Of a DNA stretch of 64,000 nucleotides, positions 16,777 to 50,200 are shown piece after piece. A program made the position numbers and the translations under genes. Below the pieces are notes generated by a model that had not been told where the DNA came from, ran no database searches, and saw nothing but the letters and a program-made list of their open reading frames with translations. Location: assembly GCA_943736015.1 (NCBI GenBank), contig OX031063.1, forward strand, positions 42,114,672 to 42,178,671. The letters are read 5' to 3'. Every line of letters begins with the position of its first letter. The stretch's first letter is position 1. The stretch comes from Tridacna crocea (lineage: Eukaryota; Mollusca; Bivalvia; Cardiida; Cardiidae).

Positions 16777-17008
16777 TTAATCCATTACCACACAATCCCG
16801 ACTTTTAACGACCCTCAGAAAGGAGCCTTTTGAAAACACTGTGGGAAAAGGAGAAAATGCTGGTAACCAGCATTTTCTCCTTTTCCCACAGTGTTTTCTA
16901 CCCTTCCCAAACCTGCAAATATTAGTTTTTCAGTCACCTTTATTTTGTCGTCTGCAAATGCTTTCAATTTGGACAAGTCTATTATTTTCTCATATGGTAA
17001 AGAGTTAA
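16777..17008 (+). mobile_element. TTAA MITE just upstream of receptor exon 1
   Basis: Complete; ends 84 nt before the exon at 17093. A worn copy precedes it at about 16250-16440. Confidence 0.88.
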
Positions 17009-17092
17009 ATGTGTTCAAAAGCCATTTACTATGATAATTCATACATGATTTTTTTCCCTTCTATTTATAATGTTCTTTTTCCTTTATTTCAG

Positions 17093-17247
17093 GATCGCCA
17101 GACTTTAGTCCAGAACTGAAATTCTATGATATGGCAGACAAGGTTGTAAATAATACACTGGTATTACAGAAAGGAGATACTTTAGACATTTCATGTTTTG
17201 GGCAGAGTGATGTAGAATGGGTTCTTAGACAAGGGTCTGAAATATCT
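17093..17247 (+). CDS. Exon 1 seen: D1 first half, unit 1
   Basis: Enters in phase 1 after TTTATTTCAG and leaves in phase 0 at GTAAGT. It encodes the B and C strands of an Ig domain: FYDMADKVV, an NNT sequon, KGDTLDISC with the first Ig cysteine, then EW with the core tryptophan. It is closest to the matching exon of unit 3 (29966), sharing YDMADKVV, KGDTL-ISCFGQ and QG. A TTAA MITE ends 84 nt upstream of the acceptor. Confidence 0.93.
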
Positions 17248-20200
17248 GTAAGTACCAAATCTCTTTCCTACCTGTAATGTTTCCCTTGAAAAAGAAGTAT
17301 TGTCAACGCAGTCATCATTTGCATCATAATTGCTACTGTTTGAAAACTAAAATTTTCTAATATACCTGTTTTTAGAAAAGATATATACTGGTCATCCTCG
17401 GATACCCGGGATCTCCCTATTTGCTACGCTACATCGACCCCTGGGACAATTAGTTGTAATTCCCTCGCTTTACCGCTGGCCGAATGCTGGCTTTTCATTG
17501 GTTCCATCATCATTTTGTGATGGGCGAGTGTACTGTACGCTATGACGTTTCGTAGCGATTTTCGGCGACTGATTCAAAGTTTTATCAGTCAATTGTCCCA
17601 GGGTCGATGTAGCGTAGCAAATAGGGAGACCCCGCGGTATCCGAGGATGTATACTGGTATTTCAAACTACATATTTAGGGAGAGTTGTGTAGAAGCATCA
17701 ATGGGGCACTGTCTGAGGGGCAGATAAGTTACTTTAACTCTTAAAAATATTTTGATACATAGATCTTCCCTTTCATGATTTAGACTTCATTACCACACAA
17801 TTCTGGTCTTTACAACCCCGAGATAGAAGCCTTTTGAAAACAACGTAGGAAAAAGAGAAAATGCTGGCTACAGAAAATGCTGGTATCCAGCATTTTCTCC
17901 TTTTGTTTTCTACCCAGCTTGAAACAAATTTCAATTTTTGAGCTATGTTTATATTTTGCAAATTTGAAAAATTTGCAAACTTTTCTCTATGTGAAAAGGA
18001 GAAAATACTGGTTTATAATCTCACGATTTGTTTTTAAACTTTTCAAAGACAAACCCCAGCTTTTGAGGTACATTTAGGTTGTCGTCTGCAACTGCTTTCA
18101 AGTCTAGTACTTTGTCATTTCGGGTAAAGAATTATGCAGATTTTGATAGTTTCCTGTAATTTGACCTGGCTGTAACCCTGTGCTTCGTACAGACGCATCT
18201 AGATGCAGCTGGGATGAGCACCTTATTAACCCATTACCAGATGACAAAATTTTAGCCATGTCCTAATTGAAAGCATTTACAGACGACAATTTCAGTGTCA
18301 CTCAAACTGTGGAATTGTTTAGTGATAAGGTAGAAAACATTGTGGTAAAAGGAGAAAATGCTGGTTACCAGTATTTCCTCCATTTCCCACAATGTTTTCA
18401 AAAGGTTTCTTTGCAAAGGTCGTTAAAATTCATCATTGTGTGGTAAAGGGTTAAAATACTGTTCTCTGTACAATACTGAGTTTGTTTCCAAAGTGTTAAA
18501 TGTGTTCAGCGCATCTTTCAGTTATGTTATTGCTACTTTATTAACCCATTACCAAACAAAATTGCAGACGACAAAATAAAAGTGACTGAAAATTTGAAAT
18601 TTGGTTTGTGAAGGGTAGAAAACATTGTGGGAAAAGGAGAAAATGCTGGTAACCACAATGTTTTCTACCCTTCACAAAACAAGCTTCAAACTTTCAGTCA
18701 TTTTTATTTTGTTGTCTGCAAATGCCTTCGATTTGGACACACCTAGAATTTTGTCCTATGGCGATGAGTTAAGATATGGTTATGTGATAAAAAGAATTCC
18801 ATGCTTAGTTGCTCTTTAGCCAGCTTCAGAACCTCAGGTTGAGATTGTGAGAGTAGTGAACATCAAATCTCTAGCCACTCGAGGGTTTGGACTCTATTCC
18901 CATGGCTGGCCACCTACAACCTCGTCTAGTCTTTGGTTAACTCTTTACCACACGAGAAAATTCTAGAATGGTCAGATTGAAAGCATTTGCAGAAGATAAT
19001 CATAAGGTGACTGAAAAATTAAAATTTGGTTTAAGAAGGGTAGAAAACACTTTTGGAAAAGGAGACAGAGCTGCCTACCAGTACCAGCATTTTCTCCTTT
19101 TCTGACAGTGTTTTCAAAAGTCTTCCTTCTCAGGGTCGTTAGAAGTCGGGATTGTGTGGTAAAGAGTTAAACTTATCTTTCGAGGAAAATATATCCATAT
19201 CACACATTGTAGATCAAAGATCAGGCTGCATATTTTGTGCAGGCTGCATATTTTGTGCAGCCTGATCGTGATCTATACTGTCAGCAAAAGGTCAGTTAGT
19301 TGCGCTTAACACCCTAAGGGTTAAACAGGGGTCCTGTGTGATGGTAGCATACACCGAGTAGGTTAGAGGGCCAGGGATAACTTCGGAAAGGTTTTGACCT
19401 ATACCCTGCACTATACAAAACTAAAAGTCTTCTGGAGAGCTTGGCAGTATGGGTAAATCAGTGGGAGTGATAGATTAAAAAGTCAGTCAAACAAGTTTTT
19501 GTTAAAATAGTGTATAAAAATGTTATTGACTGTTAAAGGCTCTTTCGCCTATGTCGACAGTTTAGATCAAGATCAGTCTGCACAAAATGTGCAGTCTCAT
19601 CCTTCATTAACATTATCTGATGCGCTGAAACATTACATGCAAAAGCAAGCTGTGAACTCGCAATTATCTCCATGTTATTCTAGAGTGAAAGTGTTTAAAG
19701 GGTTAATTAGGATGAGACTCATGCAAGATTGGATATTTCTGGAACTGAGTGTGGCTTATCCATCAAGCAGGTTGAAACAAAATAGTATTCTCCAAGACAA
19801 ACCAATATGAAAATCTGACGACATAACCATTTCTTTAAAATTGCTGTGGCAAAAAAAGAAAATAGTGGTTACAAACTTTTTCCCATTTCTTAAAAGCAAT
19901 TTGATTGTAAATTTTTTTTTCAGGGCCCAGATTTTAAATTAGGTTCATCACTTGACATTATGGTAACCAATCAGGAAGAGGAACTGGGTTTTGTGTCCGT
20001 TCTTGTTGTAATGAGATTACAGTTTAATTACACTGGGCTGTATATATGTCGACTGACTGCTTTTCCAGAGTACAACTCATCTGTTTATGTGTATGCATCA
20101 GGTATGGGCCAACCATTATTGGTTTGAGAGTTCTTGATAGACAGAGGATATTTTGTTTGTTTTGGTGCATAATCAAAATTTATTTCATTGAGTGAACATC

Positions 20201-23200
20201 ACTGGTAATATTTTCACAAGTGTTGCTATATTACTAGTGATGTTCAACCAGTGAGATAAATTTCCATCTGTCACTGACAAAAAAAAGTATCCTCCATCTA
20301 TTTGATGCTTCTTTGATGCTCCTTTTTGTTGGGGTTTTCATTAACCCTTTACCTGTTATGCCAATGTGAGACACTTCCATTTTAGCAGCAAATAAAGATA
20401 TGATGTCAAAAACATGGACAAATGAGGATACAAATATCTGATTGAGTGGAAAACATTGTAGGAAAAGGAGTTACGAGCAATTTCTCCTTTTTCCAGAGTG
20501 TTTTCAAAGGCTGTCGGTCGTTGATGTGTCAAAATGAGTATCTATGGAGTAAAGGGTTAAAATTCAGGACAGTTGTTTTGCCGATTCCATATGGTGTACC
20601 ACCTCCACATAGCAAGGCATTACAATATTACGTAAACTTTGAGAATGAAGGGTAAATGCTGGTGAATAACATCATAGTTATGTCTTACACTGTTTATGTA
20701 GGTAAATAATGCCTGGGAATTACTGTTTCTTTGTTGAAGAGTTAGAAAATATGAAATCGGTATTTTTCACTAGTCGTAACCATGAAATATCAAACCACAT
20801 TTGATAATTATATCTTGATAAACTACCTAAAAGTAAGAAATAGAAAATATTATCAACCTTATGCAAATCAATCATATGGTTTTTCAGCGGCCCTGGGGTT
20901 CTATTTTGGCACAGTTGTAAACTGTTGGACTCGTAAGCGGGGATCTGGGATTGAGACTTATTTGAAGTCCTTGGTTTGCATGGGAGTGTCTTAGGGCAAG
21001 ACACTTCAGAACCCTAGCCTAGTCTTGATAAATGTTGAATGGGATGCATAACGCCATTCTGTCAATTTATCATTCAATCACCCAATAGGAGATTGCAGAA
21101 AACATTGTTGGAAATGCTGGTAAGCAGCATTTTTTCCCTTTTCCAACAATGTTTTCTATAACAATTTCATTCTTATGGTCAGACATTTGGGGATTGCATG
21201 ATATAGGATTAATAAAAGGTTAATTCTTCAAGATAACTAACATGTTGTGCAATCTTTAAATAAAGATATTCAATGACCAAAGGGAAACAACTAGTACTAA
21301 AATGACATTGGTGTAGTGATTTGGTGTTACCCTAGCCTGGGTAGAAAACATTGTGGGAAAAGGAGAAAATGATGGTTACCAGCATTTTCTCCTTTTCCCA
21401 CAATGTTTTCAAAAGGCTTCTATGTCAGGTTCATTATAACCAGGGTTCGTTTGTTTCTGAGTTAAGCTCTAATCTTTCACTGAGACTAGCCTTTCCCAAG
21501 CATCAAAATTCAAGCCTGGTCCAAATAACAAGAATTTTGCAGGCAACAAATTGAATGTCGCTGAATTCATGATTCCCCTATTTGACAGAAAAGAAAACAA
21601 TTTGAGAAAAGGAGAAAACACCAATTTGTAGCATTTTTTCCTATTCCCTCATCTTCAAAATCCTTCATTCTCAGGATTGGTAAGACTTATGCTTGTATGG
21701 TACAGGCTTAACTCATTACCAAACAACAATATTTTAGGCTCGTCAAAATCGAAAGCATTTGCAGACAACAAAATAAAAGTGACTAAAAATTTGAAATTTG
21801 TTTTGTGAAGGGTAGAAAACATTGTGGGAAAAGGAGAACATGCTGGTTACCAGCATTTTCTCCTTTTCCCACAATGTTTTCAAAAGGCTTCTTTCTCAGG
21901 GGTGTCAAAAGTAGGGATTGTGTGGTAATGGATTAAACCAAACACTTTTTTCCTTTCAGATCCAAATGAGCCATTTGTGGACCAGAATTATATTGATAAA
22001 AATTTCTATACCAATCAACTTAATCTCACACAAGGCAGCAAAGGTGTCTTCCCTTGTAGAACCAGCAATCCAGTGTACAAGGTCGTCTTTACCAGCTATG
22101 GTATTCATCCTAAAACTTACGGACCAGACGATGGAATAACCTTTGACCCAAAAGTGGGTGTAATTGTTGACAATGTGGAAGACTTTGAAGGTGTTTTTGC
22201 ATGTGAAATAACAATCGATGAAACAGCCAGGACATTTGCAAGGTCGTGGCAAACACATGTTGAAGGTTAGTTTTATGTTCAAGTCTTTAATCAGTCAATA
22301 AAAATGTGAACAAGTGCAAATGGAAAGTATTTGCTGATGACTATTCAGCTGAAGCTCAGCTCATTACCAAACAACAAAATTTTAGACTAGTCTCAGAGCT
22401 CAAGATAACTCTTTACCACACGAGAAAATTTTAGACTGGTCCAAATTGAAAGCATTTGCAGACAACAAAATAAAGGTGACTGAAAAATTGAAATTTGTTC
22501 TGGGAAGGGTAGAAAACACTGTGGGAAAAGGAGAAAATGCTGGTTACCAGCATTTTCTCCTTTTCTCACAGTGTTTTCAAAAGGCTTCTTTCTCAGGGGC
22601 GTCAAAAGTAGGGATTGTGTGGTAATGGGATAACAGGGAGTGATGGTACTCTAAACCCATTATTCCTCTTCCAAACCATATGTTGTTGGTACTCATTAGA
22701 ATCATCTCTATGAGATGATTCTTATGAGCACCCACAATAGGGGATTCTTATGAGCACCCACAATAGAGATGATTCTAATGAGTACCCATAACATAGGGTT
22801 TAGTAGAGAATAGATAATAGTTTCAGTTTTGAAATCAAAATGACTCACTCTATCTGGAGCTCTGTGTCTGAATCGAAAGCTTTTGCAGACACCAAAATAA
22901 CCGTGACTTGAAAGTTAAAAGTTATCTTGGAAAGGGCAGAACACATTGTGGTGAAAGGAGAAAAATGCAGATTACCAGAATTTTCTCCCTTTTCCATTAT
23001 GTTTTTAAAAGGCCTGTTTACAAGGGCCATTAAAATAGGTTTGTGTCATTAGAAATTAGCACTGCATGGTACTTTAATTGTATTCCTTGACTGTTACAGT
23101 TCCACCTGAATTTGTGACACCAGATGCAATGCCTGGTTTCAGTGGTGACCAACCTGTTCTTGATTTTCATGACCTAAGAGACAATGTTGTAAAAGGAGCT

Positions 23201-26200
23201 CTGCAGGTACAAAAAGGAGATACATTGAATATAAGTTGCCATGGAAACACACATTTAGAGTGGCTCATCCAACAAGGACCAAACGAATATGTGAGTGTAT
23301 TAGTGGAATTCAGCTTTTCTGATTGGTTCATTTTCTATGAATTTATTGTGATACCCCCTGAAGGCTGTTTGTTATGTTACAGGGGACAGTACAAGATACA
23401 GGACTAAACCCATCCTGAGTATATCCTGAAAGACAGTAATTTTAGATTGCCATCCACAGGGCTTAAACCCGCATCCTCAAGTGGCCCAGGACTTGACATT
23501 TACAAGTTCAAACACTGAAACTTGGTAGCTCAGTCGGTATGGTGCAGGACTTAAAAACATGGGGGCCAAGGTTTGATCCCTGGCTACAACCTCTGCTTAG
23601 CCATTTTTAATGCTCACTGAAATATTTCGAAGGGAGCATAATTATAGTCGCCACGCTGTGTGTACGTCCATTTGTTCGTCCGTCAGTCCTTTTGTCCGTC
23701 CGTCTGAAGCCATTTCTCCACAACCCCTGGAGCAAATTTTATGAAGCTTCATTTTGAACTCCTTGGGATAATACGCTAATAGTTCTCTCCCAGTTTCTCA
23801 ATTCGAGGCTGTGTCACAGAAAAAGGGGGCTTCATGTAAAAAATTGTTTTTCACTAGTATCTCCTACATCATTGCTAAAAACATTGTGAAATTTCAAATC
23901 TGAACTTGCGGGAACGTTACCCGGATACCTCTTTCCCCGTTTCTCAATTGCAGGCTGCGTCGCGGAAAAAGGAGGCTTGATTTAAAAAAATGTTTTTCTC
24001 TAATATCTCTTACATTAGTGCTCAAAAGATGTGGAACATTGCCCAGATACCTCTTCCCTGGTTTCTCAATTTCAGGCTGCATCACAGAAAAAGGGGGCTT
24101 CATATAAAAAATCGTCATATGTATTATCTCCTACATTACTGCTCAACATTTCATGAAATTTCGAATTTGAATCATTATTCAAAAATGCCACAAACCACTC
24201 ACCCTTTTGTATTTATTCCAATTATGCAATATTGTCTTATGGGAAAAGGGGGCTAAAAGGGGGATTAGTGGGCTTAGTGTCCTCTACAAGTTTGTGATGG
24301 CTGTTAATCCAAAAGTATTACAGCTGTTAATGTTAAAATTCATAAACAGATAGATCTTAATGATTAATAGAAAACATAATTTTTAGGGGAAAAGGGGGCT
24401 TCATGGTAGAGTTAGAATCAGTTTTTCTCCATTATCTTGCTGGTCAAAATTTCACATTTCAGTTATTATCCTCCCCAAAGGAATTTCGCTGTCAGTCTGT
24501 CCATTCATTTGTCAAGCTCTATTTCAATTTGTTTTCTTGCATTTTTCTCCCGGTAGATATGTCGTCAATTATTATCATTGTCTCTGACGGCTCTTGTCTT
24601 CAAGAGGATTGATGATAGTCACCATGACAAGATTCATTCCTGTCCCATCACTGACCAGTTTTGACATTGATTATGCTGGAAAGCAGCCAGTAGCTTGGAA
24701 AGAAAATTGTGCAAAATACTTGTAAAAGAGACTCCAGGAATGCATGGATAGCTATACTGGCCACCATGATATAACCAATGGTGAAAATGGCATTAAGCAC
24801 CATTCAATCAATTACAAGTCCAACTCTCTATCACTAATCTTGAGCAATTATTCAGGCTAGTCATTCAGGCTTTTCTATAGTTTTCACAGCTTTATAAGCT
24901 TAGAGTTCCAAGTTTGATCTGTTCCTTGGTCTTTAACAGACAATAAATTCTAGACAAGTCCAAGTTGAAAGCACTTGCAGACAACAAATTAACCGTTTAC
25001 CATTCAGTCCCAACTTTTAATGACCCTACGCAAGAAGCCTTTTAAAAACATGGGGAGGAAATGCTGGTGACCAGTATTTTCTCCCTTTCCCACAAAGTTT
25101 TTCTACCATTCCAACATCATATTTCAATTTTTCAACCATATTTATTTTTGTCATCTGCAAATGCTTCAGTTTAGACCGGTCTAAAATTTTGTCCTTTAGT
25201 AATTAATTTGACTCAAAAGGGATTTGTTTCTGAAATGGTGGAACATATTTTAAGAAGAAGAGAAAATGCCAGTTTACGAGCATTTTCTCCTTTTCTCACA
25301 TTATTTTTAAAACTTATCTCTCCGTATTGTCCAAACATGGGATTGTTGGGTACAGGTTTACATTTGTGCGGCAAATAATAGACCTTTGGCTTTACTTTGT
25401 GGTTTCGAAAGCCATGCGTGTTTTACTGGACAATAAAGGGCTGAAAAAAAAACTCACTAGGCATTGTCAGTCTTGAATATGACTTAGGTAGTTGCGATTT
25501 CATAACTCCTTTTTGTCTTTTGTGTTATAGCATAGTGGACAATGTAGATCAAAGTTCAGATTGCACATTTTGTGCCATCTAATCTTGATCTGCACTGGCT
25601 GTAAAGATAACTATAGTTGTTAAAGGTGCTTACTAGCATTACTTTTGGCAACAGATCATTGAAGTTCAGTGTTACTTACCTTGAAGTTGTTTAACCCATT
25701 ACCACACAATCCCTACTTTTGACGCCCCTGAGAAAGAAGCCTTTTGAAAACACTGTGGGAAAAGGAGATAATGCTGGTAACCAGCATTTTCTCCTTTTCC
25801 CACAGTGTTTTCTACCCTTCCCAGAACAAATTTCAATTTTTCAGTCACCTTTGTTTTGTCGTCTGCAAATGCTTTCAATTTGGACCAGCATAAAATTTTC
25901 TTGTGTGGTAAAGAGTTAAATTCATGTTTACATAAAAATACAACAATTTTCTATCTCTGTGACATCATCAAGATTCTGCACCAAACTGCATGACTTACAA
26001 AGGTTTCAGTGACATCAGTTCCCAATGATGTTAGTTTTCATTGAACTATGGCACTCAGAATTATGATTCATTACAGCCTTGAACAAGTTTCCAAAATCCC
26101 ATGCCACCTGACCCTGCAACTAATAATGTTCCACTTGCAGTTGACATGTATGGTTGGGGCTGAGGTTGGTACATACAAAACTAATCTTTGACAAAATTAA

Positions 26201-29200
26201 TTGGATTAGCACTGATTTTCACTCACTAGATTCAATATTATTATTCCTAGATACTAGAGTTTGAGAAAAGAAGGTTTGCAAAAATAATTGCGGAAGAGGA
26301 GCAGAATGATGGGCACTACATTTCTCATCTGACTGTAGACAGTATACAGTATGATTACACAGGCTATTATATATGCAGGCACAAGGGTGTTTTACATGAG
26401 ACATCAGCTGCATACATATATGCAACAGGTAAGTTAACCCTAAACCAGATAATACATAATTATGTAATCAAGAAGAAGGCTGTTTGAATTAGACAGATGC
26501 TGGTAACCAGCATTTTTTTTCCTTTTCCTAAAGTATTTTCTGTCCTATTAATGACAAATCCAATCATTAAAGCCATATTTGATTTTATTGTCCACTCTAT
26601 TGCTCAGTAATTATATTGCTATACTGGAAAAGTGATCTATATTTAAAAGCAGTAACTGTTATCCATAGTATTCATCAAAAGAAATCTTGGTGAGCAGAGT
26701 CCACTATGTCATAAGGAAAATGGAAAAGGAACCCATTTAAGGTTATTTTCCAATTTTTCTTTATTTTGTTTCAGTATTTATTGGCTGTGTAATAGTCTCT
26801 TAACTCTTTACAACGCAATCCCGACTTTTAACGACCCCAAGAAAGACGCCTTTTGAAAACATTGTTGGAAAAGGAGAAAATGCTGGAAACCAGCATTTTG
26901 TCCTTTTCCCACAATGTTTTCTACCCAATCCTAAGCAAATTTTGATATTACAGTCAAGATTCATTTTGTCGTCTGCAAATGCTTTCAATCTGGACTGGTC
27001 TAAGGTTTTCTTGTGTGGTAAACAGTTAAAACTTTGAATGAAAGCATCATGCATTTCTGTGACAAAAAGTTTATTGGTGGGAAAACTCTTACTTTTACTT
27101 CTTCATTCATATAACATTGAGCTGCTTTGTGACAAGGACCGGGTGGGGGGTATGACCATGTTAAGTGATAGCCCTAGTTATTATCTGCTTCTTTGAACTG
27201 GTATTTAGACAGAATTCATAATTATTTTTAGATCCAGACAACCCATTTGTTGACCCAAAATATGCGGATTCTTCCCCCCAAAAGGTCAAACTAGATTTAG
27301 GAAGAAAGGGAGTTATCCCATGCCGTACTAGCAGTATGGATTATAGGGTTGTTTTTGCATGCGTATGTGACAAAGGAGAAGTGTATGGACCAGAAGATGG
27401 CATCACTTTTGATCCCAGGGTTGGAATTAAAATTGACCGAGTTGTTTTGAGTTTTGACGGGTATTACAAATGTGTTGTTGATGTTCCAACCCCAGCTGGT
27501 GTGAAAACCTACAGCAGAACATTTCATGCCTGGGTGCCGATCAAAGGTAGGAAATTTGCTCTGTAGTGATGGTTGTTTGATTTGTATTTTAATTTTAAGA
27601 GTACATAGCACTTAATCAGACAATTCTTTAACAATTTTGAAAAAGGGCTTTTGAAAAGTTGTAGCAAAAGCATAAAATGCTGAATAGATAAAACACTTGA
27701 AGGAAGAATTGTATTGTTATATTGTATAGCCTTGGAGCTGTTGTCAACAGATTTGACTGGATTATGGTGCAAATACTTTGACATAATAATTATAATATGT
27801 CTGATATTACTTCACATGTTTACTTGAAACATTGACAATATGATATCTGTTAACCCAATACCACACAATCCCTACTTTAGACGACCCTGAGAAAGAAGCC
27901 TTTAGAAAATATTGTGGGAAAAGGAAAAAATGCTTGTAACCAACATTTTCTCCTTTTCCCACGATGTTTTCTACCCTTCACAAATTAAATTTCAAATTTG
28001 GTAATGAGTTAACCCATTACCACTCAATCCCTACTTTTGACGCCCCTGAGAAAGAAGTCTTTTGAAAACACTGTTGGAAAAGAAGAAAATGCTGGTAACC
28101 AGCATTTTCTCCTTTTCCAACAGTGTTTTCTACCCTTCCCAGAAAAAAATTCTATTTTTCAGTCACCTTTATTTTGTCGTCTGCAAATGCTTTCAATTTG
28201 GAACAGTCCAAAATTTTCTCGTTTGGTAATGAGTTAAGCAGGGACCTTCTACAGGGGTAAGTAACCATCAAAATACTTTTGACACAGTGATGCCCCTTTT
28301 TCAACATGGAATTTTCACTGAAAAACAAGCACTTGCACTTGAGTACATGTATTGGCACCTATTATGTGGTGTATTTTATGTCCATGGAACCTGCCTCGTC
28401 CTTTTCATGTGAAAACTTTCTCGTATCTCTTTTTTTTACTTTGAATATTTAACCATATAATAATCCATAGTTTATATAAATTTTAGAAAGAAGGGCTTTG
28501 AAAATATTGTTGGAAAAGGCGTAAAAACTGGTAAACAACAATGTTTTCACAATTTCAAGGGCAAGTTGTTGAACTTCTTGCCACACATGAAAAATGTACG
28601 CCTGTCCAAGTTGAAAGCATTTGATAAATGCCAACTTCTATGTGACTCAAATGAGGAAACTGCTCTTTGATAGGGTGAAAAACATTGTAGGAAAAGGAGA
28701 AAATGCTGGTTACGAACATTTTCGCCTTTTCCAACAATGTTTTCAAAGAATTTCTTCCTCGGGTCAAAGTCAGCATTGTGTGCTAGAGGATTTAACTACA
28801 TGTAGTTGGTCATCTGTAAATGCTTTTGAAATGGTTTAGTAGATTAGCTTACTGTTTATTGAAAAGGGAAGGCTATAGCAGGAGGTTTTCCTGACCCTTA
28901 CCATTATTTAACCCATTACCACACAATCCCTACTTTTGATGCCCCTGAGAAGGTAGCCTTTAGAAAACATTATTGGAAAAGGGGAAAATGCTGGTAACCA
29001 GCATTTTCTCCTTTTCCTACAATGTTTTCTACCTTTCACAAAACAAATTTCAAATTTTGGTCACTTTAATTGTGTCGTCTGCAAATGCTTTCAATTTGGA
29101 CAAACCTAAAATTTTGTTGTTTGGTAATGTGTTAACCCATTACCACACAATCCCTACTTTTGACGCCCCTGAGAAAGAAGCCTTTTGAAAACACTATGGG

Positions 29201-32200
29201 AAAAGGAGAAAATGCTGGTAACCAGCATTTTCTCCTTTTCCCATAGTGTTTTCTACCCTTCCCAGAACTAATTTCAATTTTTCAGTCACCTTTATTTTGT
29301 CGTCTGCAAATGCTTTCAATTTGGACCAGTCTAAATATTTCTCATGTGGTAATGGGTTAACCCTTTACCAAACAATCTCTGGTTTTCACGACCTTTTAGA
29401 AGAAGCCATTTGCAAATGTTATGGAAAAAGGAGAAAATGCTGGTGACCAGCATTTTCTTCTTTTCTCACAATGTTTTTTTCCTGTCAAAGTAAAATTGCA
29501 CTACTTGAGCCACATTGAAATGAGAGTCTGCAAATGCTTTTAATCTGGACAAGGCTAAAATTTTGTTGTGTAGTAAAGGATTAAGACAGAATTATCTGTT
29601 TTTTTTTTCAAGTTTGATTTTTCACTGAAAAAGCACTGCAGCCAAGCTTTGGCACAAACATAATTAACCCATTACCACACAATCCCTACTTTTGACGACC
29701 CTGATAAAGAAGCCTTTAGAAAACATTGTGGGAAAAGGAGAAAATGCTGCTAACCAGCATTTTCTCCTTTTCCCACAATGTTTTATATGTTTTATACCCT
29801 TCACAAAACCAATTTCAAATTTTTCAGTCACTTTTATTTTGTTGTCTGCAAATGCTTTTGATTTGGACAAACCTAAAATTTTGTCGTTTGGTAATGAGTT
29901 AAGTTGCTCATGCTTTATCTAATATGACTACTCAGTACTAAGTGTTATTTGATATTTGATTTCAGAAGTGCCAGATCTTCAACCAGTGCTAGAGCTCTAT
30001 GACATGGCAGATAAGGTTGTACACAAAAGTCTGCTGTTAAAGAAAGGAGATACTTTAGAAATTTCGTGTTTTGGTCAGAGAAATGTGTCATGGGTTGTAA
30101 AACAAGGTGTAGATAGTTCTGTAAGTAAATATTGCATCAAAGTTATACACTTCCTTTATCTCGGTTTCAGACCACAAAATTTTAGTCTTCTCCAAAGTGA
30201 AAGCATTTGCAGGTGACAAAAATATGGAAAACTGAACAGTTAAAAATTGTTTTTGGAATATAAGATAACATTGTGCAGAGGGAGAAAATGCTAGCATTTT
30301 TAGCTCATCTGAGCATGAAGTGCTCAGAGTGAGCTATTGTGATAGTGCCGTCATTGTGTGTCATCCGTTGTCAACTTTTACCTTGTGTACACTCTAGAGG
30401 CCACATTTTTAGACTGATACTCATGAAATTTGGTCAGAATGTTTGCCTCAATAAAAATCTCAGTAGAGTTTGAAATTGGGTCATGTCGGGTAAAAACTAG
30501 GTCACCCATTCAAATTATAGAAAAACCTTGTGTACTCTCCAAAGGCCACATCTTGGGTCCAATACTCATGAAAAATGGTCAGAATCTTTGCCTTGATAAA
30601 ATCTCGGACAAGTTTGAAAATGGGTCATGTTGGGTCAAAAACTAGGTCACTAGGTCAAATCTTAGAAAAACCTTGTGTACACTCTAGAGGCCACATTTTC
30701 AGTTCGATACTCGTGATACTTGATCAGAATGTTTGCCTCAATGATATCTGGAAGGAGTTAAAAAATGGATTCCGTCGGGTGAAAAACTAGGTCACTAGGT
30801 CAAATCTTAGAAAAACCTTATGTACGCACTAGAGGCCACATTTTCTGTCCAAAACTCTTGGAAGTTGGTCTTAATGATATCTTCGGTGGGTTTTAAAATG
30901 GGTCATGCTGGGTCAAAAACTAGGTCACCAATATGCTCTAGAGGCCACATTTTCAGTCCAAAACTCTTGAAAGGTGGTCAGAATGTTTAGCTCGATGATA
31001 TGTTGAAGGAGTTAAAAAGTGGGTCATGTAGGGTCAAAAACTAAGTGACTACATTTTCAGTTCAGAACTCTTGAAAGTTGGTCAGAATGATTGTCTTGAT
31101 GATGTCTTGGATGGGTTTGTAAATGGGTCATGTCAGGTCAAAAACTAGGTCACCAGGTCAAATGTTAGAAAAACCTTTGTATTCTCTAGAGGCCACATTT
31201 TCAGTCCAAAACTCTTGTAAGTTGGTTAGAATGTTTGTCTTGATGATATCTCGGATGAGTTCTAAAATGGGTCATGTTGGGTTAAAAACTAGGTTGCCAG
31301 GTCAAATCCTTAGAAAACCTTGTATACCCTTTGAATGCCACATTTTCAGTCCAACACTTGAAAATTTGTCAGAATGTTTGCCTTGATAATATCTTGGATC
31401 AGTTTGAAACTGGGTCAATTTGAGTCTAAAACTATGTAAATTGGTCAAATATAATAAAAAAACCTTGTGTATGCTCTGGAGGACACATTTTCAGCCTGAT
31501 ACTCCTGAAACTTGTTCATAATATTTGTCTTGGTGATACCTTGAATGAGTTTGAAAATGGGTCATGTGGAGTCAAAAACTAGGTCACTGGGTCAAATATT
31601 AGAAAAACCTTGTGTACACTCTAGATGCCACATTTTCTGCCTGATACTCTTCAAACTTTGTCAGAATGTTTGTTTTGGTGATGTCTCAAAAGAGTTTGAT
31701 AATGGGTAATTGTCAGGTCCAAAACTAGGTCACTTGGTCAAATCTTATAAAAACCTTTTGTACACTGTAGAGGCCACATTTTCAGCCCAATACTCATGAA
31801 ACTTGGTCAGAGTGTTTGTCTTATTGATATCTCAAACGTTTTGATGATGGGTAATGTCTGATTAAAAACTAGGTCACTAGGAAACTAGATTGAAAATGGT
31901 CCATGTTTAGTCAATAGACTCAGGTGAGCAATTTCAGGGCCATCATGGCCCTCTTGTTTCAATGTATTCCCTTTTTTTTTTCAGGGTCCAGATTTTCGTC
32001 ATAGTTTACTACCAAATATCATTGTGACAGAGGAAAAAATCAATGATAACCTTTATATGTCTCATTTGGTTTTGGAGAACATACAGTATGATTACACAGG
32101 ACTGTATATTTGTCACTTAGAAGATATTCCTCGATATGATACTTCTGTCTACGTGTTTGCCAAAGGTTTGTATTTGCATTTTGTTGTGAAATCATCCTCT

Positions 32201-35200
32201 GCTAGCTATTGCCTTTAACCCTTTACCAGATGACAAAATTTTAGACAGGTCCAAATTGAAAGCACTCAAAGATGACAAAATAAACATAACTCATTAATCG
32301 AAATTTGTTTCCAGCAGGGTAGAAAACATTTTGGGAAAAAGGAGAAAATTCTGGTAACAGGCATTTTCTCCCATTTCCACAATGTTTTCAAAAGACTTCT
32401 ACCCCAGGGTTGTGAAAACTTGGGATTATTTGGTAAAGGGTTAAGGCTTGTCCAATTTGAAAGCAATTGTAGATGACTTATCAAATATAGCTTAAATTGA
32501 GGAAGTTGTATGAGAGAAAGAAAGCATTATGAGAAAAGGAAAAATCCCCGTTTTTGGCTGTTTGCTGATATTTGTAATGTATCTGTAATTACTTGAATTA
32601 TTTGCCTGATACTAAGACAAGTTGTTAACTATCAAAAAGGAAACCAATACACCAAGGGCAGGTAACTATCAGAGTAATTTTGACCAAGCTATGCCCCTTT
32701 TTCAACTTAAGGATTTTCACTGTAAGTCAGCTGCAGCCGAGTAAACCCTTTACCACACAATACTGATCTTTAACGACTCTGAGTAAGAGGCCTCTTAAAA
32801 ACATTGTGGGAAAAGGAGAAAATGCTGGTAACCAGAAATTTTTCCTTTTCCCACAATGTTTTCTACCCAATCAAGTAAAAATCACATTATTTAAACCAAA
32901 TTATGTTTGTCATCTGCAAATGCTTCGAGTGGGATACTTGTCCAAATACATGGATCCGTGGAAATCGATATTTGACCAATCAGGACATCACATTTATTCT
33001 ACCCAATGTCCTACCTTGGTTTCTGGTATTTCGGCTCACAAATAAACGACTGTTAACGTTGGAAGAATGCAATTCTCTTTATTTATATTTTGTTTTTAAC
33101 GTTTGAATTTTAAAAAAAAGCTTAAAAAAATGTGCTTTGCGAACGTGTACCGATGACGTGAGATCACGCAGAGGCTATAGACAAGTTTAAATTGTGATGA
33201 CTTCTGAAAATTTGAACTTATGCAAAGACCTGATCAGCGCTGGATAATGGATTAATTCAAAGTATTCTATAATTTTTCCTCTCTGAAAGAGAAAACTGGA
33301 AAACAAAGGCAAAAATAGACCTGTATGAAGTATTAATAAAAAGAAAATACTTTTACTTGAATATTAACCTTTTTCAATAACCTATGCAAAAACATATCCA
33401 AAAAGTGGCCGCGTAACTTGTCACCAACAGACCCGTCACCAATGTTTCAATTTGACATTAATCTTAACCCATGGTGCATGAAGAATATGTTGAATGTGTA
33501 CTGGGATCGTATATACGATCTCTGATGTGTAGATACAGATCACATTGCAAATAGCATGATGATTAGTCTTGGATTTAAAGAACCTGCTGATTGCAATAAG
33601 CACTTTGACGTGTAGTTCTTCCTCACTAGGAGTATATTTCAATTTTAAAAAAGTCTAACTTCTGATCTGGTGGAACTTGGAATTTTTTCTCTTGACTTAT
33701 CTGTTTTAACCGTTTACAACATAACGGGTTTTAACGACCTGTAGAAAGCTTTTAAAAGCATTGTGGAGAAAGGAAAATGCTTGTAACGTTCATTTTATCC
33801 TTTTCTCACTGTGTTTTGCGCTCCTTCAAAAACAAATTTCAATTCTTGAATCATTTATTTTGTTGTCTGCAAATATTTGAGTTTGGATTGCTCTAAAAAA
33901 TTTGTCATTTGGTGACGAGTTTAAATGGATTAGCACATCTGCACATTAGCACAAAGGGTGTGTTGGTAAACTGTTAATTTGATAGGAAGTGTGTTTGATT
34001 GCAAAGCAAGTTACCGCTCTAATCAACTTGACCACCCGTTGTCATCAGTATATCATATACTACCGTCAATGATATTAACAATTTTCTTAATTTACAACAC
34101 ACTTAACACATTTTATAATCCACCAGACAACCCTTTTCCCCATAACCTGATATTAAAATTTTTCATTAACTTAAACCTCTCTGTAGAATCAGACATTCTA
34201 TAAACTTTTATAAAGGTTTGTAATTTAGTGTTATTTCATTTGGTATGATGCTGAGATGACTTTACTAGCCCAACGAAAGCAATAAGTATCGTTAATTCTA
34301 TTATACTATGGCAAAACGGAGATTTGTTGATGTTTTTTATATGTTCAAATTTTTGTTTAAACATGTAAATCTGTTACATTGTACATCGCCCCCGTAATTC
34401 GCCCTTTTAATACATATCTGTATGTAAATTAGTTAAGCATCTTTAAATTGTTTACTGAGAATTTATCATCGATAGAAATATATGATTAAAATACTTTTTC
34501 CGGAATTTTATTGAGAGAAACCGTCATGACAGCACGATTTAAGTAGCCTATCTGCTATACTGTATATGTATTGACTACGTTTGTTTGTGAGACCTTGGCA
34601 ACAGTAACTAAGGTAATCGGTTTATCTTATCACCACGGATCCATGTATTGAAAGCATTTGCAAACAATAAACCAAATGTGACTCAAAAATTGAAACTTGA
34701 CTTTAGAAGAGTAGAAAACATTCTGGAAAAGGAAAAAATGCTTGTTACCAGCATTTTTCCTTTTCCCACAATGTTTTCAGAAGGCTTCTTTCTTTGGGTT
34801 GTAACAATTAGATAATCTTTGGTGAAGGGTTAAAAGGGTTAAAATCACTGTGTAAATGAGGTTTCCAGGATTTATTTTGTTTTGCATTTCTCATATTTTC
34901 AACAGCCTTCTCCCTGAGGGTGAAAAAAGAAATGAGTTTGTGTGGTAAAGTGTTAAATTTTATGTTCAATACTACATTTGCTTCTGTTTACAGACCCTGA
35001 GAATCCATTTGTAGACCATCATTACTTTGCTATAGATGACTTTGTGAACCCTATAGTACTGACACGTGGTAGGAAGGGTACATTTCCCTGTAGAACAAGT
35101 AGCCCAGAGTACAATGTAATTTTCACAAGCTATCATAACCCACCCAGAGTGTATGGGCCAGATGATGGAGTGACCTTTGACCCAAAGGAGGGAGTTCTTG

Positions 35201-38200
35201 TGGACATCATTGATAAGCATGATGGTATATTTGCTTGTAAAGTAAATATTACAACCAGAGATGGAACCAAAACATTCATGAGAACATGGCAGACACAGAT
35301 TACAAGTAAGAATTTCAACTCTGCTGTTTTCTAAGAAAATGTCACAGTATTGCCAAAGCCCTGTCGTCTATGTTCTTATCATGGCTTGAAAACTTACATA
35401 TTCTCTCATATCCCAGTTTTTTACTGCAGATATTTATATCCAATTTGGATTTCTTGTTTACTATGAAAATGGCAGGTAACTATGGATACATTTTGGACAC
35501 AATTAATGCCCCTTTTTCCCTTGACTTTCACTGAAAAAGGGCAGGCAGTGGAATGTTTGAATCCACATTTAGTGCACATTTTCCCCTGTTTCTTTTTAAC
35601 CATTTGAATGAAACTTTACATAGATATCTTATATACCCTCTAAAGACCACTTTTTGGATGAATTACTCTTTAAAAAATAGGTGTAAATGTTTGTCTTGAT
35701 AGTATTACATTAGCTCAACAACTAGGTCACCAGATTAAATGTTTTTAGTTTTTACACCTTGTGGACGCTCTAGAGGCCACAATTTTAAGATGATAATCTT
35801 CAAACACGGTGGGAATGTTTGTCTAGATGATTCTTTGATGGGTATGAACCTTAGTCATTTTGGATCATAAACTAGGTCATCTGGTCTTCCTTAAAAAAAA
35901 CAACCCTTTTTAACACTTTCCAGACCACAATTTCTCTTGGATATTTATGAAAGCAGGTCAGAATGTTTGTAAGGATAACTTCTTCAAGTTTTAAAAAAGG
36001 CCATGTTAAGCTAAATGTAGGTCACCAAGACATATTCTAGAAAAAGCTTGTGTACACTCACGAGGCCATAATTTAAGTCCAATGTTAGAATATTTGTCAT
36101 TTTATCTCAGAGGAGACTGGAAATAGGTCATATTCGGTCAAAAAGCTCAGGTGAGCAACTTCATTATTATTGCAATGGCTGTTTAACCCTCAGCTAGACA
36201 GTCCCAAGGTTTAACAACCCTATGGAATAGAGCCTTTGAAAGAGTAATGCAAAAAGCAGAAAATGCTGTTAACTCCTTACCAAACACAAAATTTTGGACT
36301 AGTTCAAATTGAAAGCATTTGCAGACAACAAAATAAATGTGAATCAAAAGTTGAATTTTATTTTGGAAAGGGTAAAAAATATTGTGGGAAAAGGAGAAAA
36401 TGCTGGTAACCAGCATTTTATCCTTTTCCCACAATGTTTTCAAAAGCTTTCTTTCTCAGAGTCATTAAGAGTCAGGATTGTGTGGTAAAGGGTTAATCAG
36501 CATGTTCTCTTTTTCCAGCAGTGGTTTCTACTCTTTCAGAGACAAATCTGTTTGAAGTCCATTTAGAGTGTTGTCAGAGTTTTCAATAATGGCTAACCTA
36601 AAATTTTGTCTTTTTAGAAAGAGTTGATTATTTGCAAATTAACGTACTTTCAGTTCCTCCGAAATTTCCACCAGTACCAATAATAATACCAAATGGAGAA
36701 ATATATCGTATAGTTGGGGAGAACTTTAACCTGTCCTGCCAAGTAACATATCTCAGATACAATAGAGCAAGTTTGAAGTGGAGCCATATCAGGGCCGGAT
36801 CAAATGAGGTAAGTGGATTGATGGATGGATGGATGGATGGATGGACGAACGAACGAACGAACGAATGAATGAAAGAATGTTGTTTTATGGCGCATCAACA
36901 GCTTTGGTCATTTAGTGCACACATCTGTGTTGAAAGATAATGAAAGTGGACATTTTAAACAGAAAAAGGTTTAAATACATTAATCATAGTAAAAGGGTTA
37001 AATTAAGAGAAATTGTAATATTCATAAGGACAGTATTGAGTGACAGGGCAATCCATATCAACTCAAAAGTTTTGAATGGTGAATTTAAGATCGTGAAAAA
37101 AAATTTGGACAAAGTTTTAAATTGATATTTAAAAGTCTTTAACTTTTTACCATACAATGACGACTTTGAACACGCCTGAAAGAGAAAGCTTTTGAAAACA
37201 TTTTGGGATAGGTCTGAAATTTTGTTGAGTGGTAAAGGGTTAAGTGATAAAGAATTATCCTGAGAAGAATAAGGAAAGTGAATAGCAGTGCTTGCAATGA
37301 ACATCAAACATTGCGGTTGTAAAATTTTTCTGTGCTAGACTTATAAAGCCATGCTTTGGGTATTTTGGAAAGATAGGTGACCAGTTAAATGACAAAATTT
37401 TCTGAACAAACTAAGATCGATATAAAAGCCAAATGTTGCATGTTTTCTATAGTATTTAGCAAATCCCACAATTAATTAGCCTTTGAACATGAAAATAAAA
37501 ATCTTTGTACCTGATTAGCTCAAATGATCTAAAAATATTGTGGGAAATGGAGAAAATGCTGGTCACCAGCATTTTCTCCTTTTCCCTCAATGTTTTCTAC
37601 CTTGTCATTGAATAAAAATATGTTTGTACCAATATTTAAATCATCTTCTGCAGATTTTTAATTTGATTTGGATGAGTTTAAAAGTTATTTTATCGGAAAG
37701 GGTTAAATGAATGGTGCCTTTTTTGCTTTTTCTCTTCTCTCTATTAGTGTTTATGATCGTTCCCCGTGGGGTCCCGGGGTTTTTACTGTATAGAATAGGA
37801 CCTTGGCCTTTCTCTATGGCATGTCGTAGATTGCGACTAAAGTTAGAGACAAACGGCTGCTTTCCTCATATTTCATAGGATTGCAGCAGGTTGGGTAGTT
37901 CTTATTCCAAATCCTATATTTTTTTCTCGATGTAAATAGGGTTTGGAATGGGAATCAGTTGGCCTGTGGGACCCGTGTGGTTTAATTGGGGGTATAAAAA
38001 TAAACCACTGCAGTCCCGTGATCGTCACATCTGCCATTTCATCTGGCGGAACAAACGTGACAGCATACATGTCATCAAAGGCGACAAAAGGGGCATCATT
38101 TTATGTTTCGTCCATTCCTCATTTATCATGTTTGTCTTATGTCGTTATGTTATTTTCACCTTGCATTATTGTTTACTAAGTAAGTGCGCCCAATATGACT

Positions 38201-41200
38201 GATGTTGTCGACGGGCCTTAAAACACTATTCATTCATTCATTCGTTTATGATCATAGATGATACAATGCATCAGTATCAGCCAATACAATACAAAGTCTT
38301 AATCTTCTACAGTTGTTTCCATAATCATTCATCAAATTCTAAACAGTAGTTCACTTACATGTAGTTCTAAGTTAACTTGCTAGCTGATCTGGGTATGAAG
38401 TGCTCAGGGTGAGCTTTTGTGATCATGCCGTGTTCATCGTGCACTGTGCATCATCTGGGCATTCACAGTTACATGTACCTTGTTTGCACTAAAGAGGCTA
38501 CATGTTCATTCCGATACTCATGATATTTTTATGACAATGTCTGTCTTGATAAAAACTTAGACAAGTTTGAAATTGGGTCATGTAGGATAGAAAAAAATAG
38601 GTCACTGACCAAATCTTAAAAAAATCTTGTGTGCTTTTTAGAAGCCACATTTTGAACCCAATACTCAAGACACATAAAACATTGAGGTATATGGAGAAAT
38701 TATATTTTACAGCCATTGTCTCCTTTGACCACAATGTTAGCAAGACGTGGTCAGCAGCGAAATAAAAAAGTTGTCTGCAGAAGAAAATGAGGAAATGTGG
38801 CCACATTTTATTTGCTGTTTTATCCATCCATAGTTGAACGTACTTATTCCCCTCTCTTTTCCCTTTCTCTGTCTGTTAGATTAGAAAACCCTTAGATTTA
38901 TCTGCTACTGTCACCTATTGCCTTCTCTTAGTTGTGAATGGCTGTCTTTTCTCTATTTTTTCTGACAGGAAGTTGATTTGCTGCCCCAGCCTCTGGTAAG
39001 ACCTTTTTATTGTATGCACAAAGCATGTTAGATACTGTCCAAAAAGCTCACAAACACATCCTCGTCTGTCTCTTTACCAAACCACAACATTTGGACTTCT
39101 TCAAATTGAAAGCATTTGCAAGTGACAATTTGAAAATTTGACTCAAAATTGAAATTTGTGCTGGGAAGGGTAGAAAACATTGTTGGAAAAGGAGAAAATG
39201 CTGGTGGACAGCATTTTCTCCTTTTCCAACAATGTTTTCAAAGGCTATTTTTCTCATGCTTGTTAAAAGCTGGGATTGTGTGGTAAAGACCTATCAATTT
39301 AATTTTAGCTCATTAGGTCAAAAGCCAGCAAGTAAATCCCACTGCCCTGTGTCTGTCATGTGTGCATGCTTTGACTTAAGTTCCAAACAACTGTGAAATG
39401 AAAAAAGCAACTTCCAATTAATTTTACAGAAATGATCCTGTCTATAATTATCATCGTCAGATTTCTAGAAGTCAAGTAACCATGGCAAAAAGGCTGTAAT
39501 ATATTGATAACCAACATTTTCTCCTTTTCCCACAATGTTTTCTACTCTTCTATAGTCGAGTTTCAGTTTTTGAGTCACATTTATTTTATTGTCTGCTAAT
39601 GTGTTCAATTTGGACAAGTCTAAAATTTTGTTGTTTGGTAAAGAATTAACTCTTTACCAAACTACAAAATTTTAGACTAGTCCGAATTGAAAGCACTTGC
39701 AGATGACAAATGAAATGGAAATCAAAAAATGAAATTTGTTTCCAGCAGAGTAGCAAAGATCACCAGCCTTTACTCGTTATCCCACCAGGTTTTCAAAAGG
39801 CTTCTATTTCATTGTCATAAAAACCAGGGATTGTTTGGTTAAAAGTTAATAGAAAAGAAAGCCTGGCACCTCAGTCTGTATTGCATGGGTTGCTTGTTTG
39901 GATCCATTTCTGTCAGTTTCTTTCCAAGGTTTGATAATAGTCATTGTGACAAGATTCTTTCCTCACTGCTGATCATTATTTTAGTGATAGTTATGTTGTT
40001 TCAAAAATGGTTATGTAGAAAAGCAGCCAATTTCTCTGGAAAATATTTTGCAAAGTACTGGTAAAAGGAATTCAGGGAAAGCATAGATAGTTGCACTGGT
40101 TGATGTGGTATCATTGAAATAACTCTGAAAACAGTGTTAACCCTTTACCAGATGAGAAAATTTAGCCCTGTTTAGCATTTTGAAGACAACAATTTCAAAA
40201 TGGCTTAAATGGTGCAACTATTTATTGATAGGGTAGAAAACATTGTGGTAAAAGGAGAAAATGCTGGTTACCAGCATTTTCTCCCTTTCCCACAATGTTT
40301 TCAAAAGAGCTCTTTGCATGGGTCATCAAACGTAGTCACTGTGTGGTAAAAGGTTAGACACCATACATAGAAATTATTTATAATATCCTGATATGTATTG
40401 AATTTTGTAGCCTTCAGCTCGTATTAGTATTACGCAACCATTTGAAGTAAATCTTCCAGACAGAGAATATTCCAGAACTAGAAGTGACCTGGAAATAAGA
40501 GGGGTCAATCTACAAGATGCGGGACAGTACAAGTGTACTGCCACAGCAACTATATCCGGACAGGATAGTGTGACGCTTCATGTGTTAGGTAATTCGATAA
40601 CCCTTCTGTAAATGGTTGTGAAGTCTTTATTTTTAGCTCTACTGGCTGAAAGCCAGCAGAGCTTATGTCATGGCAGGGTTTCCGTCGTCCATCCATCAGT
40701 CCGTCCGTCCGTCCGTCCGTCTGTCCGTCCGTTAGTCTTTTTCTTGTTTAAGGGATAAAGTCTTCATTTGTTGTCAGATTTTTGTGAAACTTGCGCAGTT
40801 TGTTTATCTCATCAATAGCTTCAACCGTATTGATTTTGAGAAAAATCAAACAAACAATATGGGAAAAGTAGCCATTTCAAGTTGAAAATTTCAAATTCTT
40901 GTTTATGCGATAAAGTCTTCATTTTAGGTCAGATTTCCAAGAAACTTGCAGAGTTTGTTTATCTTATCAATAGCTTCAACCGTCCAACAAAGAGTATGGG
41001 AAAAGTAGCCATTTCAAGTTTAGAATTTACATTTCTTGTTTACGCAATAAAGTCTTCATTTTAGGTCAGATTTCTATGAAACTTGCAGAGTTTGTTTATC
41101 TTATCAATAGCTTCAACCCTATTGATTTTGAAAAAATTCCAACAAAGAGATTGGGAAGAGTAGCCATTTCAAGTTGAAAATTTTCATTTCTTGTTTACGC

Positions 41201-47200: not shown

Positions 47201-50200
47201 ATAGTCTTGCTCTAGCCCCTTGAAATGCTTTCATTTTGGACTAGTTTACACTTTTTTTATGTGGTAAAGAGTCAAGATTCCGAGAAGCATTATCAAGAGC
47301 AAGTAATTTAACTTTAAAGACCTTGTTTCACAGTCGTTGTAGAATATGTGTATAAAGATTTGGGTTAAACTGATACGAACTCACAAAGATTTTTAATCTT
47401 ATGGCTTGACAGTCTGAAAAAATAGATTCAAGATAAGAAAGCATGTTTTGTGCAGTCAAACCTTGATTTATGCTATCCTTATTTATGCCTATGCCCGAAG
47501 GGGGGGGGGGGGGAGGGGGGCGCGCGGGGGGCAGGCAGGCATGCACACCAGTGGGTGGGTATGCAGGTCGGCGGGCAGGCAGGCAGCAGGCACATTATAT
47601 AAAACTGAACTTAAGCCTTTCCCAAGCAACAAAGTTTTAGACTTGTCTAAATTGAAAACACTTGCAGACAACAGAAGAAACGTAACTTAAAAATTGATTT
47701 TTTTTTCCAGCAAGATAGGGAATGTTATGGGAAGACGAGAAAATGCTGACTATCAGCATTTCCTCCTTTCCCACAAGGTTTTTAAAAGGCTCTATCTAAG
47801 GGTCATAAAAAACAGAAATTGTTTGGTGAAGCAGGTTAAACTAGGTTATTTCTTTTCTTAATCATGTAGATCCAGACAGAACCTTTGTGTATCTATCCAC
47901 CAAAAAGAATGCATTGACTGTCAGTGAGGGTGCCCCTGAGATCAGGTTTATAATAGATGTATTTGCATACCCCAGACTACCAGAGTTTTACTGGCTGAAA
48001 GACAGTCGCAACATTACGGCTGAGGATACAAATATTGAAGTTGTGCAGTAAGTTAATCTTTTATTAAATAATTTCTGTGTTTTTAGCTTAGCATGGTCAT
48101 GTCAGGGTTAAAAGTAGGTCAATAAGTCAAATTTTAGACACCTTGCCTATGCTCCTAGGGGCCATATTTTCAGATCAATACTCATGAAAATTTTTCAGAA
48201 TGCTTGAATTGATGTTATCTCAGAGCTTTTTGAAAATGAGTCACATCAGACCAAAAACTGGGTCACTGGAACAAAGCTTTGAAAACTTGTCTATGATCTA
48301 GAGGCCACATTTTCAATAACCATGAAACTTTGTTAGAATGTTTTGCTTGATAACATCTTTGATAAGTATGAAAATTGGTCATGTCAGGTCAATATAACTA
48401 TGTCAAATCTTTGAAAAAAACCTTGTGTATGCTCTAGAGGCCACATTTCCAATCCATTAATCATAAAACTTGGTCAGAATGTTTGTCTTGATGACACCTT
48501 AAACATTTTTCTGAATAGGTCAGATTGGGTTAAAAACTAGGTCACTTGGCAAAATCTTTGAAAAAATTTGTGCATATTAAAGAGGCCACAAATTAAGCTC
48601 AGTGCTCAAGAAACTTGGTATAAATGTTTATCTTGAAGACATCTTGAATGAGGAGGCCAAATTTTCCGTCCAATTATTATGAAAGCTTATTAATTATTTA
48701 CCACACAATCCAGAGTTTTAAACAACCCTGTGGAAAAAGTCCTTTGAAAACATTGTAGGAAAAGTTACCAGCATTTTCTCCTTTCTCCACAATGTTTTCT
48801 ACCCTATCACATACAGAAAGCGTCTGTTTAGCTAACTTCAATATGTTGTCTGCAAATGCGTTGAATTTGGTCTCGGTCTGAATTTGTTGTTTGGTAAAGA
48901 GTTAAAATGTTTGCTGTCATTATCCTGAAAAAGATTTAAAATGGATTATCTTTGATCAAAAAGGCTCAGGTGAGCAACTTCAAGGCTATTATGGCCCTGC
49001 TGTTTTTTCTTCAAATATGCTTTGAAATGGCCACGGAAAAATACAAGTTGCTGGCAAGTTTTTCCAAAATGTTTTTTTTGTTTGGAAATGTTTTGCTTTT
49101 CAGTAACCTTGCACCAAATTCTTTGATTTATTTCACCAAACTACATTGACATATCACTTTGTTTAACCCTTTGCCAAACAATCCCTGGTTTTTACGACCC
49201 TGAGATAGAAACCTATTGAAAACATCGTGGGAAAAAGAGAAAATGCTGGTTACCAGCATTTTTTCCTTTTTCCCACAATGTTTTCTACCATACTGGAAAA
49301 AAATTTCAATTTTTTAGTTACATTTATTTTGTCGTCTGCTAGTGGTTTCAATTTGGACCAATTTTTAAATTTTGTCCTTTGGTAAAGAGTTAAAGATGGG
49401 TATTTAGAATTTTCACATGACACCAAATTAAAAAATATATATATCATTGAAATTTATATGAAAAAACAATACAAATCATCAGTAATTAAGAATTATAAAA
49501 TTACAAAAAAAAAATTTTTTTTGATGGTATTCCCTTAAAAGGCTACGTAGCCTCTTAAGCTATTTTTAGATTTCATGCCAAAAATCAATAAAGCATTGTG
49601 GGAACGTCAAGTGACTGGCACGTGACTAATAACGCTTAAATTCCATTACAAAATAAACATTGAATAATTATTTTCCATTATGTCTTCTTTGGACGGATAA
49701 TTTAGATGAGAGAATTGATAATCTAAAAATAAAACGTGTCTCCCGTTGGTGTCAACCTGGTCCATGATAAATCTCTAATTTCTCTTGTTATCGGATGGTT
49801 TTCGACTACTGGGGTTTTATGTACGCAAATTAAAAGGCTATGGGAGTATAAGGATGATTTTTTGCATTTTTGTAAAATTTTTGTCCCAAAATCTGAAGGG
49901 CCACCTTTAAAGAGAGTTTGAGACTTCAGAAGTGTTGTTTATACTGCTAGAGGTTTGTCGTAACCCTTTACCACACAATCCCGACTTTTAACGACCCAGG
50001 GAATAAAGCTTTTTGAAAACATTGTGGGAAAAGGAGAAAATGCTGATAACCAGCATTTTCTCCTTTTCCAACAATGTTTTCTACCCTTTCCAAATCAAAT
50101 TTCAATTTTTGATCCACATTTATTTTGTCGTCTGCAAATGCTTTCAATTTGGACTTGTGCAAAATTTTGTCATTTGGTAAAAGAGTTATGTGTCCATTGA

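Follow-up and report, generated by a model that had tools for sequence, protein, structure and literature searches.

A VEGF receptor gene with a tripled D1-D2 module

The DNA analysed here, hereafter the window, is a stretch of 64,000 nucleotides from the bivalve Tridacna crocea (contig OX031063.1, here C8; C8:42114672-42178671), which is without N and belongs to a genome assembly of 1.05 Gb in 31 contigs. It contains part of a predicted receptor tyrosine kinase (RTK) gene of the VEGF receptor (VEGFR) class, in which the module formed by the two outermost immunoglobulin (Ig) domains, D1 and D2, occurs three times. Position 1 corresponds to C8:42114672, and coordinates past the window edges are given as window-equivalent positions. 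An earlier note on this DNA had described nine exons in three D1a-D1b-D2 repeats (17093..35305), and this description holds, as the motifs recur three times in the same order, the exons are bounded by AG and GT, and their phases match. The exons are as follows.

17093..17247, + strand, module 1 D1a: KGDTLDISC; AG/GT bounds; phase 1 to 0; first half of D1 with the first cysteine
19924..20101, + strand, module 1 D1b: YTGLYIC; phase 0 to 1; second half of D1 with the second cysteine
21960..22265, + strand, module 1 D2: PCRTS and YGPDDGITFDP; phase 1 to 1; an entire Ig domain
23100..23290, + strand, module 2 D1a: KGDTLNISC; 12 extra N-terminal residues relative to the other copies
26251..26428, + strand, module 2 D1b: YTGYYIC
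27232..27546, + strand, module 2 D2: PCRTS and YGPEDGITFDP; the most diverged copy
29966..30120, + strand, module 3 D1a: KGDTLEISC
31985..32165, + strand, module 3 D1b: YTGLYIC
34994..35305, + strand, module 3 D2: PCRTS and YGPDDGVTFDP; adjoins D3, as in VEGFRs
36618..36808, + strand, D3a: phase 1 to 0
40411..40588, + strand, D3b: phase 0 to 1
47870..48047, + strand, D4a: phase 1 to 2
58854..58975, + strand, D4b: phase 2 to 1
C8:42182760 to the stop codon (window-equivalent 68089-89124), + strand, beyond the window: exons for D5-D7, membrane helix, kinase and tail

D1a and D1b are the two exons of a single Ig domain, and each module comprises two Ig domains. On the + strand, KGDTL lies at 17170, 23213 and 30043, YTG-Y-IC at 20029, 26356 and 32093, PCRTS at 22052, 27318 and 35086, and YGP[D/E]DG[I/V]TFDP at 22118, 27384 and 35152. 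The cysteines of both D1 and D2 are kept in the outer modules. D2 of module 2 (27232-27546) carries two additional cysteines (C-x-C) that are found in neither of the other copies and perhaps form an extra disulphide. The introns between the modules measure 834 and 2,419 bases. Both ends of each module are in phase 1, which makes duplication of the cassette neutral to the reading frame; D3 likewise starts in phase 1.

The complete gene model consists of 28 exons with consistent phases from module 1 to the stop codon (C8:42203793-42203795), with AG at all 28 acceptors and GT at all 27 donors. The predicted protein of 1831 amino acids, signal peptide not counted, has the order (D1-D2)x3, D3, D4, D5, D6, D7, membrane helix, VEGFR-type juxtamembrane region, a split kinase encoded by seven exons, and tail. 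Its eleven predicted Ig domains together account for 1188 amino acids; D4 is devoid of cysteines, and D6 has one of the two Ig cysteines. At least eight Ig domains had been proposed to precede D5, a number which is matched exactly by (D1-D2)x3 followed by D3 and D4. D5 is located past the window end (68089-68445), and the kinase exons lie approximately 13-23 kb beyond it, the catalytic-loop exon being 17.7 kb beyond, among the matches listed in a tyrosine-kinase search of the genome. The exon chain was obtained with a simple scorer on the window and its flanks, and gaps were closed by targeted search; an exon score of at least 7 is reached by 21 of the 28 exons. The automatic chain comprised 23 exons, four of which had one end adjusted, while two (19213-19290 and 38969-39026) were discarded as they disrupted the domain structure or appeared to be repeat-derived.

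Assignment to the VEGF receptors

The earlier note had proposed a VEGFR/PDGFR-like receptor, and the kinase found downstream, past the window, narrows this assignment. Among the best 60 of 661 matches to solved structures, the kinase is closest to VEGFR1 (E = 1.1e-113) and VEGFR2 (3e-107), followed by PDGFRA (5e-97) and then by KIT and FGFR. The kinase insert aligns with those of VEGFR1 and VEGFR2, and VAVK, HRDLAARN and DFG are all present; the receptor thus has a split tyrosine kinase closest to the VEGFR kinases, as is characteristic of class V RTKs. An unrelated Ig family was rejected on the basis of these best matches. The class III RTKs, PDGFR and KIT, have five Ig domains and were rejected as well, given that eleven are predicted here and PDGFRA ranks behind VEGFR1 and VEGFR2.

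The Pfam models for the VEGFR N-terminal Ig domain D1 (PF22854) and for VEGFR D2 (PF21339) point in the same direction. With the full protein as query, PF22854 (2.4e-16, 60.2 bits, three stretches), PF21339 (2.4e-14, 53.3 bits, two stretches) and the kinase model (6.7e-87) are all above the cut-off. When the copies are taken singly, PF22854 matches D1 of modules 1, 2 and 3 at 3.3e-4, 1.1e-3 and 5.2e-3, as the best model in two copies and, in module 2, second to a general Ig model (2.5e-5). PF21339 is the best model for all three D2 copies, above the cut-off in module 1 (1.5e-6) and below it in modules 2 (0.014) and 3 (8e-5). The identification of the repeated unit as a triplicated D1-D2 is therefore borne out, although just one of the six single copies exceeds the cut-off. 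Neither model matched at E up to 10 in four queries covering D3-D7; D3 matches Ig_3 (8.9e-9) and D4 matches I-set (2e-5). The NCBIfam models added no information.

A profile of the three D2 copies retrieved VEGFR1 from the PDB as the top six of 15 matches (best E 9.8e-5). Module 3 together with D3-D7 is colinear with human VEGFR2 (2.2e-24) and VEGFR1 (2.9e-24), with most of D6 absent from the printed alignments, and D1 to D7 are all found in the order of class V RTKs, with the same reservation for D6. The two extra modules aside, the predicted receptor is of the standard VEGFR plan. As eleven Ig domains are predicted rather than exactly seven, we regard it as a variant and not as a canonical seven-Ig VEGFR; this structural variant with its tripled D1-D2 module is, in our assessment, real and well supported.

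The next-best match to the juxtamembrane and kinase region in the genome lies at C9:19999802-19999966 on the - strand (56% over 55 residues) and probably belongs to another receptor kinase.

Number and age of the modules

In a tblastn search with the third D2 over the 214 kb around the gene, the other two D2 copies were found at 1e-33 and 7e-24 and everything else had E of at least 2; a fourth module was not found between -90 kb and +124 kb of the window. The genome-wide search with the same query, in which the best candidates only are scored, yielded just the three D2 copies at E up to 10 (three of three scored candidates). With the Pfam D2 model, the D2 copies of module 1 (above the cut-off) and module 3 (below) rank first in the genome, that of module 2 is missed, and four further places match weakly (E 0.15-6.5). 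The D1 model recovers none of the three known copies genome-wide, probably owing to the division of D1 over two exons, and is hence uninformative on D1 elsewhere.

The copies are 37-52% identical in D1 and 40-52% in D2, copies 1 and 3 being closest in both domains, and all three modules agree in 67 alignment columns. Across six comparisons between copies, synonymous divergence (dS) is 1.07 at the lowest and exceeds saturation at the highest, and nonsynonymous divergence (dN) lies between 0.35 and 0.59. A tree of five sequences separates the three modules from KDR and FLT1 (FastTree support 0.999) and weakly joins modules 1 and 3 (0.61); of the module branches, that of module 2 is the longest. 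The duplications look old and yet would postdate the split from the vertebrate line, the latter on a tree that is small for such a claim.

The introns also contain a foldback interspersed repeat of 231 bp (e.g. 26800-27030) with the inverted ends TTAACT...AGTTAA. It matches at 51 places, which add up to 8105 bases (12.7% of the window); 49 of these places lie between 731 and 43195, and none was found past 50155. The repeat is probably behind most cross-matches between the module introns.

Start of the gene and flanking sequences

Before modules 2 and 3, our filter identified no signal-peptide-like exon among the ATG-to-donor segments of the right phase (0 of 5 and 0 of 42, respectively), and the introns there contain no membrane-like segment. 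The filter has a background: in a laxer test it let through one of the 25 segments in the D2-D3 intron and two of the 108 in 7000-17092, these two sharing one ATG. In the search for a signal-peptide exon, a strict filter gave none, and with a looser one no convincing exon emerged up to 47 kb upstream. With the search extended 60 kb, the best of 12 passing segments, far ahead of the other 11, is a candidate start exon at window-equivalent -57576 to -57501 (C8:42057095-42057170), 74.6 kb upstream of module 1; a weaker candidate starts with an ATG at 9531, 7.5 kb upstream, and has a weak donor. Between -90 kb and the first D1 exon, no other + strand exon scored at least 7, though short exons could be missed. 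Taken together, the sequence favours one transcription unit; constitutive and alternative inclusion of the modules are not told apart by these facts.

Two segments on the - strand upstream score as coding exons (at least 7), at -86396 to -86302 and at -52521 to -52459, the latter inside the presumed first intron. Downstream, minus-strand exons at window-equivalent 104293-116076 likely belong to a neighbouring gene, which we take to encode a myotubularin-related phosphatase.

Proposed mechanism and alternative explanations

We consider it probable that the locus represents one receptor tyrosine kinase gene of the VEGFR class with an eleven-Ig ectodomain. In this gene, D1-D2 would have been copied two times in the form of a phase 1-1 cassette with introns at both ends, so that the receptor reads (D1-D2)x3-D3-D4-D5-D6-D7, followed by a membrane helix and a split kinase; all three modules would be spliced into one mRNA, as the phases allow. 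In VEGFR1 and VEGFR2, D2 and D3 jointly bind the ligand dimer, and D4-D7 provide receptor-receptor contacts. By analogy, the third D2 together with D3 might form the canonical VEGF/PVF site, which would dimerise the receptor and activate the kinase; as D3 comes after the third D2 and no other, this is the likely signalling site. In the outer two modules no D3 comes after D2, for which reason they may be accessory arms that capture ligand or extend reach rather than separate signalling sites. One exon of a PDGF/VEGF-family ligand above the Pfam cut-off is located on the same chromosome (C8:16447752-16447931, - strand); it is the one candidate in the genome, out of 18 scored, with E no higher than 0.01.

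Several points weigh against this explanation. The exon model is home-made and read from genomic DNA alone: 21 of the 28 exons come from the chain script and 7 from targeted search, the codon weights of the scorer were partly trained on the nine module exons, and 7 of the 28 exons score below 7, so that it is chiefly their phases and their fit to the domains that support the bounds. The bounds of D6 may be imperfect, given its single Ig cysteine, and the start exon is a candidate only. Taken singly, none of the three D1 copies and one of the three D2 copies exceed the Pfam cut-off. The contrast between dN and dS is a rough sign of constraint only, as synonymous sites are near saturation. The exon phases equally permit the omission of any module, and the steps concerning the canonical site and the accessory arms rest on knowledge of vertebrate receptors.

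That omission of modules is the rule, with most receptors containing one or two of them and isoforms differing in ligand preference, is improbable in our view. Each module, being of phase 1-1, could be spliced in frame to D3 as well as to a phase-1 start exon, and identities of 37-52% are as expected of variants with different tasks. However, each cassette comprises three exons, whereas known mutually exclusive arrays mostly consist of single exons, and with introns of 834 and 2,419 bases exclusion by crowding is not expected. It is also rather unlikely, though it deserves to be taken seriously, that the outer modules make no ligand contact and merely lengthen the receptor. Such a role would fit with D3 following the third D2 alone, and with a second module whose D2 matches the VEGFR D2 model least well and has extra cysteines, and which sits on the longest branch. 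Against it stand the 67 columns invariant across the modules, though many of these are probably structural. Moreover, an outer copy, D2 of module 1, is closest to the VEGFR D2 model, a resemblance for which a bare spacer would have no need. At the other extreme are the several ligand-binding faces that the earlier note considered possible: the three D1-D2 units of each chain might present separate ligand surfaces and bind more than one VEGF/PVF dimer, or different ligands, at the same time, or switch ligand by choice of cassette. We regard such a multivalent receptor as unlikely; if it existed, one gene would do the work of several vertebrate VEGFR genes.

Two further explanations concern the locus itself. 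That the units belong to separate transcripts, from neighbouring genes or with their own starts, is very improbable and was rejected: the modules lie on one strand with matching phases, the introns before modules 2 and 3 lack signal-peptide-like exons (as judged by the filter) and membrane-like segments, there is one kinase match in the stretch among the matches listed, and the region up to -90 kb has no other + strand exon scoring at least 7, the two upstream segments being on the - strand. Nothing was seen in favour of an assembly error or a recent haplotype duplication, to which we assign next to no probability. It is contradicted by the divergence of the copies, with synonymous sites near saturation, and the window has no N; the intron cross-matches that were listed fall largely on the interspersed repeat.

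VEGFRs are as a rule described with seven Ig domains. A single gene with a twice-duplicated D1-D2 cassette implies that the VEGFR ectodomain is able to change in length during evolution outside vertebrates, and a portion of the usual ligand-binding region lies in the outermost D1-D2 unit. With D1-D2 multiplied while D3-D7 and the kinase stay single, the role of D1-D2 apart from D3 could be tested directly, be it in affinity, ligand choice, reach or multivalency.

Relation to known receptors

The Tridacna receptor resembles vertebrate VEGFR1 (FLT1) and VEGFR2 (KDR) in the order of D1-D7, in its kinase, for which these two are nearest among the solved structures listed, and in a D4 without cysteines, which is typical of the VEGFR class. 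It differs in having three D1-D2 units instead of one, and eleven predicted Ig domains. The invertebrate PDGF/VEGF receptors PVR of Drosophila and VER of C. elegans have seven Ig domains each and likewise fall short of this number. With regard to Dscam-type arrays of alternative Ig exons, the phases would permit mutually exclusive use of the modules. Seven extracellular Ig domains are also given for vertebrate VEGFRs in the available part of a published account (PMC10328876).

Among bivalves, the oyster kinome appears to contain VEGFR in a single form, as far as the accessible text states (PMC4883820). According to the portion available of another report, the recombinant ectodomain of oyster CgVEGFR binds oyster VEGF with a dissociation constant (KD) of 879 nM, and the Trx-tagged ectodomain has 103 kDa (PMC12468279). 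By arithmetic, this corresponds to approximately 85 kDa without the tag, which is near the size of seven Ig domains, as compared to the 1188 amino acids of the Ig domains in Tridacna. If the oyster construct represents the whole ectodomain, these partial data point to about seven Ig domains in the oyster, and the tripling would in that case not be a general trait of bivalves.

The earlier note knew of no described receptor of this class with a triplicated D1-D2. For the tripling itself this stands in the literature searched, where no such VEGFR was found at the level of titles and the opening lines of abstracts, most subscription papers being outside its reach; for Ig domains beyond seven it needs to be qualified. 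The sea-urchin VEGFR-Ig10 has ten Ig domains. This receptor, also VEGFR-10-Ig, is named in print (PMC13200730, PMC6768484, each in the part available), and by its name it likewise exceeds seven Ig domains, whereas the eleven of the Tridacna receptor would be reached via the triplication of D1-D2. Judging from these names, VEGFRs that exceed seven Ig domains are thus already known, and the triplicated D1-D2 of Tridacna appears as a structural variant among them.

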